From Indioceanicola profundi (lineage in GTDB: Bacteria; Pseudomonadota; Alphaproteobacteria; Azospirillales; Azospirillaceae), in contig NZ_CP030126.1 in assembly GCF_003568845.1 (NCBI RefSeq), positions 895,001 to 959,000 on the forward strand: DNA of 64,000 nt, read 5' to 3'. Shown piece by piece: positions 8,457 through 12,421 of the stretch. Under the pieces are notes generated by a model. It saw only the letters and a program-made list of their open reading frames with translations. It was not told where the DNA came from and made no database searches. Both the position numbers and the translations under genes were made by a program. How positions within the stretch are numbered: position 1 is the first letter of the stretch; each line of letters starts with the position of its first letter.

Positions 8457-10147
8457 TTATGCGCCCTGGATGCGAACGGACTGGTTTTCCCGGACCTGGA
8501 TGATTTTCTGCTTCTGGATGTGCCCGGCGACCAGATCCCAGATCGCGGGGCCTTCCGTGCCCTCGTTCACGCTGGCCCAGCCGGCGACAACGTAATTGCG
8601 GGACGCATCCACCGGCTGGCCCGTCTTCAGCATGGTCATGCCGCTAATCCGGCTGCCGATCGGCTTCGAGATGTCGATGCTGTAGCCCATCCCGCCGACA
8701 CGCACCATATCGCCGCCCTGCTGGTAATAGGGGTCGGGATTGAACAGGTTGTCGGCCACGTCCTCCAGGATGTCCTTGATCTGCTGACCGCTCATCTCGT
8801 TCCGGTAGGCGGCGGGGTAGGTGATGGCGGTCTGGTTCCAGACATCCTCCATGGTGATGGGGGTGTCCGGCAGCAGGGAGCTGCCCCAGCGGAAGCCGGG
8901 CGACAGCGCAATCTCCGCATCCCGCTCCGCCAACAGGGCGTCGCAGATCAGGTCGTCCCAGGTGCCGTTGAAGTTGCCGCGGCGGTACAGCAGCCCGTCG
9001 GCGGCGCCCAGCACCCTGGCATACTGTTCCTCGAAGGGCTGGCGCAGCTCCCGGACCAGGGAGATCATCTCCGGGTCCGGCGCGATGGCATCCGCGAAGA
9101 CCGGAATCAGACGGTACTCGAACCCTTTCACCTCGCCGCCCGGACATCCAGGTCCAGGCGGGACAGGTACTTGCCATGGCTGCCCGACGCGATCAGCAGC
9201 GTCTTCCCCTCCCGCACCGCGACGGGCAGGGCGTCATGGGTATGGGCGGTCAGGATGACGTCGATTCCCTCCACCCGGCTCGCCAGCTTGCGGTCCACGT
9301 CGAAGCCGTTGTGGGACAGCAGCACGACAAGCTCCGCCCCGGCGGCGCGGGCCTTCTCCACCCGCTCCCGCACCAGCTCCTCCCGGATGCCGAAGGACCA
9401 TTCCGGGATCATCCAGCGCGGGTTTGCGACGGGGGTATAGGGGAAGGCCTGGCCGATCACGGCGATCTTCACGCCGCCGCGCTCGAAACTCGCCGTGCCC
9501 TCGAAGACATCCTCCTCCCACTCCGTATCGCGGACGTTACCGCACAGGAAGGGGCAACCCAGCTCCTCCGCCAGCTCCGGCACGCGGTCGGCGCCATAGG
9601 TGAATTCCCAATGGCCTGTACTGGCCTCCACGCCCAGCGCCTTCAGCGCCCGGGCCATGTCGCCGCCCCGGGTCTGGAGCGCACCCCAGGAGCCCTGCAG
9701 GCTGTCGCCGCCATCCAGCAGCAGCACCTTGTCCCCACGCTCCGCCCGGATTGCCTTGACCAGCGTGGCCAGCCGGTCCAACCCGCCGACCTTTCCGTAG
9801 TGGCGGGCAAGCTGAACGAAATCCTCGGAGGTGAGGGCATAGGCTTCCGGGCTGCCGGCCTTGATCTCGAACTTCTCCAGGAAATCCCGCCCGGTGAGAT
9901 GGGGCGGCAGGCCCGCCGCCTCGCCGACTCCGAGATTGACTGCCGGCTCCCGGAAATAGAGCGGGTTCAACTGGCCGTGAATGTCGGTGACATGCAGCAG
10001 GGTGACATTGCCCAGGGCCGGAAACCGCAGCAGCCCGTCCTGCGTGATGGCGCCCGCGGCCGCGGCGCGGGCCAGACCGCCCGCACCGGTGCCCATCAGG
10101 GTCGCCGCGGCGGCCGCCACCTGCAGGAAGTCGCGTCGGTTCAGCAT
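8457..10147 (-). pseudogene. soxB: Thiosulfohydrolase SoxB, reading frame broken by a one-base loss
   Basis: Two abutting frames together make a full SoxB. The 5' part (10147-9128) gives 339 residues: Tat signal with NRRDFLQ, metallophosphoesterase motifs LLHVTDIHGQL, LLDGGDSLQGS, GHWEFTYG, LSHNGFDVD and LTAHTHDALP. The 3' part (9131-8457) begins KGFEYRLIPVFADAIAPDPEM, the usual C-terminal substrate domain, without a gap in homology. Adding one C to the CCC run at 9139-9141 (plus strand) restores DVRGGEVKGFEYRL and a single 563-residue protein, the normal SoxB length. SoxB hydrolyses the terminal sulfate from SoxY-bound S-sulfocysteine in the periplasm. Either a real pseudogene or a base-calling error; a GTG overlapping the TGA (GTGA, 9131-9128) could in theory let the second half be translated. 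Confidence 0.9.
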
Positions 10148-10250: not shown

Positions 10251-10571
10251 TCAGCCGACGGTGATGTCGGCCGTTTCCTTGGTCACGGTGCCGTCATCGT
10301 CGGTCCAGGTGAACTCGAATGTCCCGCTCTCCTCCACCTTGGTGAAAAAGGAGATATAGGGATTGGCCGAGATGCCGGGATGGAGGGTCGCGTTCAGGAC
10401 TTCCTTCCCGTTGAAGGTGGCCGTCATCTTGTTGAGGATCTTGCGCGGGATCACGTTGCCGGCGCTGTCCTTGCGCTGGCCGCTTTCCATGGCGTGGTTC
10501 ACCAGCGTCTTGATCTCGATGACCTCGCCCTTCTTGGCCGAGGACGGCAGGCGAATGCGTGCTTTTGCCAT
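10251..10571 (-). CDS. soxZ: Sulfur carrier complex subunit SoxZ
   Basis: 106 residues, normal SoxZ length, no signal peptide (SoxZ is exported with SoxY). Recognisable blocks: KGEVIEIKTLVNHAMESGQR, GNVIPRKILNKM, LHPGISANPYISFFTKV and the Ig-like C terminus. SoxZ pairs with SoxY to form the periplasmic carrier to which thiosulfate is attached. Ribosome site GAGGAACAG precedes the ATG; the gene starts 20 bases after soxY ends, in one operon running soxXA-soxY-soxZ-soxB. Confidence 0.95.
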   Translation of the reverse strand: MAKARIRLPSSAKKGEVIEIKTLVNHAMESGQRKDSAGNVIPRKILNKMTATFNGKEVLNATLHPGISANPYISFFTKVEESGTFEFTWTDDDGTVTKETADITVG

Positions 10572-10591: not shown

Positions 10592-11068
10592 TCAGCCGCC
10601 GCAGCCGCCGATGGTGACCTTGACTTCGGTCTTCGCCATCCAGGCGGACCCGTCGCTCATCTCCGCCACGGCCCAGATGTTCTGGGTCTTGGCCATGCGC
10701 ATGCGGGTGGAAATTTCGGCCTTGCCGGCCTGGGGCGTGAAGCCGAAGGTGGCGACCGCCGGTTCCGGATTGCCGTCGGCCAGGATGTGCACGGCCTTCA
10801 CATAGTCCTTTTCCGTCATCGGGCTTTCGACCGACACGGTCAGGGGCACGGTGTTCCCGTTCTCCGCGATCTGCGGCATGGTCAGGGTGACCCGGCCTTC
10901 CTTGGCCGTCTTGCCGCCGATCAACTTGCCCATCACCTCCGCCGTCTTCTCCGGCGTGGCATGGGCCGGGCGCAGCGTCAGGACGACGGTGCCGGCGGCG
11001 GCCATCGCTGCGGCTCCCCGCAGCACGTCCCGGCGCCCGAGCGTTCGCGCTGTGCTCAACTGGTTCAT
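10592..11068 (-). CDS. soxY: Thiosulfate oxidation carrier protein SoxY
   Basis: 158 residues. Twin-arginine signal with GRRDVLRG and a hydrophobic stretch, an Ig-like domain, and the diagnostic C terminus GGCGG whose Cys is the swinging-arm attachment site for sulfur intermediates. SoxY forms the SoxYZ carrier in the periplasm: SoxXA loads thiosulfate onto this Cys and SoxB releases sulfate. Ribosome site GAGGAGAG lies upstream of the ATG. It follows soxXA by 60 bases. Confidence 0.95.
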   Translation of the reverse strand: MNQLSTARTLGRRDVLRGAAAMAAAGTVVLTLRPAHATPEKTAEVMGKLIGGKTAKEGRVTLTMPQIAENGNTVPLTVSVESPMTEKDYVKAVHILADGNPEPAVATFGFTPQAGKAEISTRMRMAKTQNIWAVAEMSDGSAWMAKTEVKVTIGGCGG

Positions 11069-11128: not shown

Positions 11129-12421
11129 CTAGTGCCGGATGCCCGGCGATTCCATGGGCAGCCCGTTGCTGGCTGCTGTGACGTAGAGTTCTAGGTCCGC
11201 ATATTCCTTGGCGTCGGGCGGTAGCTCATCGGCGCGGACCTGGATGTTGCACCATTGCAGGCGCTTGCGGATGTCCCAGATCTCGTTCCGGCTGGTGCGC
11301 CAGGTCGGGAAGTGCGGAATCTGCCCGGCGGTCTCACCCAGATACTGGCCGCGAATCCACTTGTTGGCGCCCTTGTCCGGGCTGTGGCAGTCCACGCAGG
11401 CGAAATTCAACTGGCCGACCTTGGTGTTCACCATCTTCGTCGCGCGCTCCATGGCCGCCTTCGGACCCAGGCTCGACACGTCGACCTTGATCGGCATGCC
11501 GTTGGAGAGCGACCGCAGATAGATGGACATATGCAGGTTCTCGCTGGTCTGCATGATCCAGTCCGCGCCGGTCGTGGCCTTGGCATGCCGGGCCACGAAT
11601 TCCTCCACCCCGATCATCTTGTCCATGCCCTTGTGGTACTTGGGCATGGTCACGGCCCAGCCCTTCAGGGCATCGGGATTGGCGTGGCAGCTCGCACAGG
11701 ATTTGCCGTTCGGCCCATCCATGGCGAACAGCTCGGGCCCCGTATCGAACGCCTCCGCCGCCGGGTTCACGAACGGGTCGGTCCAGTCGCGGTCCTCGAC
11801 GGGCAGGGGGCGCTTTGACGGGTCGTCCAGCTCGTTCTTGAAGGTGGCCGGCGTCTTCAGCGTCTTCAGGAAGGCCACCATGTCGGCGACCTCCTGCTCC
11901 GAATAGAAGCCGTGCGCACCCCAGGGCGGCATCACGGACTCGGGGTTGTAGGCGCGCGGGTCCCAGATGTAGTTGAACAGATACTCCTCATCCGGGTTGG
12001 TGGCCCCGATCTGGGACAGGTCCACGCCGACATTGCCCGGCAGTTCCGCAGTCTCCGGCCCCATCACATGGCAGGCAAGGCAGCCGCCGCCGCGGGAGCG
12101 GTCGAAGGCCAGCTTCTTGCCATTGGCGGCATCGCCGTTCAGCGGCGCATCGATCTCTTTCACCGGGCCGGCGGGCGGGGCGGGGGTGCGGCTGGTATCC
12201 GCCAGGGTGTTGTACTTATCCCAACTGTTGTTGGTCCAACCCTTGTAGCGCGTCCAGGGGGCCTGGGCGGCCGAGCCCTCCGTCACCATGGGAACCTCGC
12301 CGAGGTCCTTGGCCACGGCCGAACCCGCCAGCCCGACCGGGCCAAGGGCGAGAAGGGTGACGGCCGACGCCTGCAGCGCCTTTCGGAACGCCACGCCAAT
12401 CGAGCGCGTATGTGGGTGCAT
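11129..12421 (-). CDS. soxXA: Fused SoxX-SoxA c-type cytochrome (one polypeptide)
   Basis: 430 residues. Sec signal peptide (about 1-37, LAGSAVAKD). The N-terminal half is SoxX: GGGCLACH haem site (114-118), GNVGVDLSQIG, and the distal Met region NPESVMPPWG (Met164). After a proline-rich linker (about 190-215) comes a complete diheme SoxA: CASCH (242-246), CVDCH (342-346), IRGQYLGETAGQIPHFPTWR and the active-site Cys391 in WCNIQVRA with the family ending ADLELYVTAASNG. SoxXA joins thiosulfate oxidatively to SoxY Cys. X and A are usually two proteins from separate genes; here one uninterrupted frame holds both. The ATG at 12421 has a GGAAGG site 6 bases upstream; the longer in-frame start at 12496 would put 25 residues ahead of the signal peptide. 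Confidence 0.9.
   Translation of the reverse strand: MHPHTRSIGVAFRKALQASAVTLLALGPVGLAGSAVAKDLGEVPMVTEGSAAQAPWTRYKGWTNNSWDKYNTLADTSRTPAPPAGPVKEIDAPLNGDAANGKKLAFDRSRGGGCLACHVMGPETAELPGNVGVDLSQIGATNPDEEYLFNYIWDPRAYNPESVMPPWGAHGFYSEQEVADMVAFLKTLKTPATFKNELDDPSKRPLPVEDRDWTDPFVNPAAEAFDTGPELFAMDGPNGKSCASCHANPDALKGWAVTMPKYHKGMDKMIGVEEFVARHAKATTGADWIMQTSENLHMSIYLRSLSNGMPIKVDVSSLGPKAAMERATKMVNTKVGQLNFACVDCHSPDKGANKWIRGQYLGETAGQIPHFPTWRTSRNEIWDIRKRLQWCNIQVRADELPPDAKEYADLELYVTAASNGLPMESPGIRH

Follow-up and report, generated by a model that had tools for sequence, protein, structure and literature searches.

A fused SoxX-SoxA protein of Indioceanicola profundi with a histidine in place of the usual haem-1 cysteine

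A single open reading frame of 430 codons encoding both SoxX and SoxA, usually separate proteins of a bacterial thiosulfate-oxidising enzyme, was found on the minus strand (11129..12421) of the window, i.e., the whole 64,000-nucleotide stretch of Indioceanicola profundi DNA analysed here. Judged from its sequence, the product is likely to be a single-chain trihaem SoxXA in which SoxX is linked to the N-terminus of SoxA, with a SoxXA-like function, with haem 1 of the SoxA half ligated by His246 and His279, and encoded by an accessory copy. A fusion of SoxX to the N-terminus of SoxA has been described in thiosulfate-using Halorhodospira (PMC8877833), so the fusion as such, the main point of a first-pass annotation of this DNA, is not new. 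The Halorhodospira protein likewise has SoxX joined to the N-terminus of a dihaem SoxA in one polypeptide, but it belongs to another bacterial group, and the likeness concerns the published domain arrangement. The window SoxXA is a genuine fusion of this known kind plus a haem-ligand variant.

Both halves of the frame, which runs uninterrupted from an ATG, were searched against NCBIfam equivalog models, as the first-pass annotation had proposed, and both passed the curated cut-offs (SoxX profile TIGR04485, 78.1 bits over residues 111–188, cut-off 61; SoxA profile TIGR04484, 158.6 bits over residues 220–429, cut-off 110), which bears out the claim that one frame holds SoxX and SoxA. The solved SoxX and SoxA chains matched the fused protein in the same order, SoxX followed by SoxA. 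All features described below for the window are located on the minus strand. A probable Sec signal peptide, recognised by eye, comprises residues 1–37 and ends in SAVA before KD (12311..12421). The SoxX cytochrome domain covers about residues 95–190 (11852..12139; TIGR04485 and chain 1h31_B, E 2.5e-6 over residues 91–168) and includes the haem motif CLACH at residues 114–118 (12068..12082) and Met164 (11930..11932), which is expected to be the distal haem ligand; the haem Cys and His residues and the Met were invariant across five aligned fusions. The linker between the two halves, previously called proline-rich, consists of about 21 residues (193–213; 11783..11845), TFKNELDDPSKRPLPVEDRDW. It is indeed short, and it is conserved within the clade of the window protein, but its proline content is no more than moderate; the stretch that stands out for proline (TPAPPAGP, residues 79–86) is located N-terminal of the SoxX domain.

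The SoxA dihaem domain comprises residues 214–430 (11132..11782; TIGR04484 and chain 2c1d_A, E 1e-26). The match to 2c1d_A begins only at its residue 51, and no equivalent of the N-terminal stretch found in separate SoxA proteins can therefore be recognised in the fused protein. The haem-1 motif CASCH (residues 242–246; 11684..11698), the motif CVDCH of the catalytic haem 2 (residues 342–346; 11384..11398) and Cys391 (11249..11251), the active-site ligand of haem 2, were all found, together with CLACH and Met164 of the SoxX half, at the positions originally claimed. Cys391 was invariant in all 83 aligned SoxA domains, and Arg387 and Arg375 were also retained in the window protein. By alignment, these three residues appear to correspond to Cys123 and Arg119 of TsdA and to Arg232 of SoxA (PMC4423706). 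In TsdA, replacing the Cys ligand of the catalytic haem by His was reported to abolish activity (PMC9562282), which fits the pattern of a strictly retained haem-2 ligand (Cys391) and a variable haem-1 ligand. The SoxXA (SoxAX) of Paracoccus pantotrophus (2c1d) and Rhodovulum sulfidophilum (1h31) share with the window protein the two domains, the three haem motifs, the active-site Cys and the two arginines. They differ in consisting of two subunits encoded by two genes, whereas both copies in I. profundi are one uninterrupted frame, and in having a distal Cys at haem 1 where the window protein has His279.

His279 (11585..11587) was found by alignment in the column where other SoxA have the distal Cys of haem 1. 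Within the aligned stretch, the SoxA chains of 2c1d and 1h31 have, apart from the CXXCH cysteines, a single cysteine close to haem 1, which belongs to the segment VNAC/INAC, and we take haem 1 of both to be His/Cys-ligated; such ligation in SoxA of this type is supported by its agreement with the conservation of the Cys column. Among separate SoxA with a haem-1 motif, this column held Cys in 46 of 50, and the remaining four held Ser (two), His (one) and Met (one). As the distal Cys is missing from these four, its loss is not specific to fusions. SoxA without the haem-1 motif had kept the Cys in all cases (22/22). His was present in all eight members of the window's clade, and the three fusions outside this clade had Cys. 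The Starkeya novella type of SoxA (3oa8), which is presumably a SoxA without haem 1, likewise deviates at haem 1 from the His/Cys pattern of dihaem SoxA, but there the motif is lost and the Cys kept, whereas the window protein keeps the motif and has lost the Cys. The four separate SoxA that keep the motif and have another residue in place of the distal Cys are those of loci L011 (Met), L033 (Ser), L044 (Ser) and L047 (His).

The window protein contains seven cysteines, six for haem attachment and Cys391, and since none is spare, haem 1 cannot be His/Cys (thiolate) ligated. The description of a full diheme SoxA half thus held for the two haem motifs and failed for the usual thiolate ligand of haem 1. 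Because of its column, its invariance in 8/8 clade members and its distance of 33 residues from the His of CXXCH, which is identical in P. pantotrophus SoxA, His279 is the obvious replacement ligand, and haem 1 of the clade's SoxA is most likely ligated by His246 and His279 (His/His), as predicted from sequence. These same features, and the variability within the clade of the alternative His263, make a five-coordinate haem 1, or one bound by some other residue, unlikely, even though further histidines and methionines are present nearby and the structure prediction, run on four fused sequences, was unusable on this point (mean pLDDT 41.6, too poor to place His279). The result on TsdA in PMC9562282 concerns the other haem, yet it indicates that a Cys-to-His swap is not always neutral. 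With His/His ligation as the preferred reading, we tentatively suggest as a possibility that the window's clade represents a distinct SoxXA lineage, a fused trihaem enzyme with a bis-His haem 1 of shifted potential and perhaps a role in electron transfer; if true, this haem might carry electrons, a role absent from haem 1 of ordinary SoxA. No description of haem-1 Cys loss in a fused SoxXA was found in the literature searched, most of it outside subscription papers; this is weak evidence for novelty.

The fused sequence shows nothing at odds with the cycle proposed for SoxA-family enzymes (PMC4423706), which begins with attachment of thiosulfate to the cysteine that ligates the haem; the SoxY cysteine then resolves the resulting adduct. 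The fused chain would be exported as one polypeptide, thiosulfate would be oxidatively conjugated to Cys391 at haem 2, the adduct would be passed to the carrier cysteine of SoxY, and electrons would leave via the SoxX haem (His118/Met164). A 1:1 stoichiometry of SoxX and SoxA would be fixed by the fusion, and export would take one step only, both of which are reasonable architectural consequences. SoxAX has been called highly recalcitrant to mechanistic analysis (PMC4423706). A single-chain SoxXA may simplify production at a fixed subunit ratio, and one with a single His/Cys haem instead of two would make the haem-2 thiolate traceable spectroscopically without a second thiolate. The natural Cys-to-His change also poses the question of haem-1 function directly.

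Fused SoxX-SoxA frames were found in nine further genomes, and the fusion is rare but recurrent in the sampled genomes, with rates that are rough since the samples were limited and searched with differing cut-offs. Fused frames elsewhere showed 72, 60, and 53% identity to the window protein. Within its own family, one fused relative was found (G009, 72%), and, besides the window's own genome, 385 sampled genomes of its class yielded another (G148, 60%). A sample of 398 genomes of the phylum gave no match across both halves except the window's own. A genome scan detected three fused loci, in the Rhodospirillaceae MAG bin98, the Alphaproteobacteria MAG MAG-114 and the Rhodocyclaceae MAG S2_15, which do not measure the full spread as the scan patterns represented the N-terminal extension only. 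Their identical sequences suggest that bin98 and MAG-114 represent the G009 and G148 organisms. Of 369 genomes from the class to which the Rhodocyclaceae MAG belongs, 7 (S2_15 among them) encode both halves in one frame, and four of the seven (G783, G886, G1081, and G1105) carry a separate SoxA too. Among the fused frames at 72, 60, and 53% identity, the gene is followed by soxY-Z-B-C-D at L029 and L030 and sits between soxYZ and soxB at L031. For the five of the seven fusions in the Rhodocyclaceae relative's class that had more flanking sequence (L103–L106 and L108), no soxY, Z, or B like those of the window was found within roughly 6 kb on either side. Long frames around the SoxA matches at L011, L015, L039, L051, and L057 were rejected as fusions, the SoxX domain being absent. 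An apparent fusion in Allomeiothermus silvanus, seen as one tblastn piece, was also rejected, as its annotation gives soxX and soxA as two genes sharing a frame. These two genes (L062, 3758–5107) are adjacent with three bases between them, and such an in-frame pair may represent an intermediate on the way to fusion.

A tree of 83 SoxA domains, 11 of them from fused proteins, placed the fusion of the window and seven others in one clade (support 100/99). The fusions L074 and L075 were placed far from this clade among separate SoxA, and L073 was found on a long branch in an unsure position. A single origin of all 11 fusions was rejected (p-AU 3.5e-5, and 0.018 without the long-branched L073), a rejection that is weakened by long branches. 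Together with the placement of L074 and L075, this suggests that SoxX and SoxA have probably been joined at least twice.

Search of the whole genome located the window on contig C1 and a second fusion on contig C2. The two fused proteins are 92% identical, and the sox operon on C2 (L007, 5835–13453) shows 92–95% DNA identity to the window copy over soxXAYZB. The C2 operon is complete, with soxXA, soxY, soxZ, an intact soxB (563 aa), and genes for SoxC-like, SoxD-like and thioredoxin-like proteins, preceded by a soxR-like regulator gene (the "-like" names derive from sequence reading and similarity between loci, not from family models). The two fusions were the only SoxX matches above cut-off in the genome, which upholds the proposal that the fusion substitutes for individual soxX and soxA genes; SoxA/TsdA domain matches were the two fusions and one TsdA-like gene (C2:413643). 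The window copy contains soxXA, soxY (10592..11068; PF13501, 1.9e-41; TIGR04488, 157.8 bits, cut-off 125), soxZ (10251..10571; PF08770; TIGR04490, 109.6 bits, cut-off 76) and a split soxB, and soxC and soxD are absent beside it. Its SoxY also scored 168.6 bits with TIGR04487 (SoxY-related AACIE arm), below the cut-off of 172 and yet above its TIGR04488 score. The order soxXA-soxY-soxZ-soxB was as first annotated, but a one-base frameshift that breaks soxB had been overlooked. The N-terminal part (9128..10147; TIGR04486 positions 1–332, 465 bits) falls under the full-length cut-off of 550 because the gene is split, and the C-terminal part (8457..9131; positions 335–555, 337.5 bits) is in another frame. 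Pairwise alignment located the frameshift at 9139..9141, where the window has one G fewer than the intact C2 copy; it may represent a sequencing error, a recent mutation or translational coupling. As the stop of the upstream part overlaps with a potential GTG restart (GTGA), two polypeptides are possible in principle.

The fused gene showed a dN/dS of about 0.13 between the two copies over the shared part, which indicates that the fusion is maintained. dS was uneven between genes of the two copies (0.13 in soxY, 0.55 in soxZ), a pattern compatible with patchy gene conversion between them. We regard it as quite possible, though not as the favoured reading, that the window operon is a decaying duplicate made non-functional by the soxB frameshift, with the C2 copy alone working: soxB is split by the deletion of one G, and soxC, soxD and the soxR-like regulator adjoin the C2 copy, not that of the window. 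However, the fused gene is intact and under the low dN/dS given above, both parts of soxB also show low dN/dS (0.06 and 0.11), so that the frameshift would be recent, a sequencing error or tolerated, and SoxB could be supplied by the C2 copy. The window operon duplicates the complete operon on C2 and is an accessory copy. The soxB frameshift could itself be an error, which might cast doubt on the fusion as an assembly or sequencing artefact joining adjacent soxX and soxA; this explanation, to which we give practically no credence, is refuted by the independent fused copies, as the second copy in the same genome is fused as well and separate genomes at 53–72% identity have the fusion with a conserved linker and lack a second signal peptide. 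The same linker conservation within the clade and the lack of a second signal peptide make it very improbable that the chain is cut after export into SoxX and SoxA working as the usual heterodimer, although the linker could be exposed. The single-chain SoxXA is the preferred reading.

Fusion of a SoxA-family thiosulfate enzyme to an electron-accepting cytochrome has also been described for TsdA and TsdB of Marichromatium purpuratum (PMC9774590). That protein differs from the window SoxXA in interconverting thiosulfate and tetrathionate, in using no SoxY carrier and in having a different partner cytochrome. In the genome of I. profundi, a gene encoding a cytochrome with two CXXCH motifs followed by a TsdA-like gene was observed on C2 (L003, 181–2235), at a distance of about 13 kb from the sox operon of that contig, and the two genes possibly encode a thiosulfate dehydrogenase pair.
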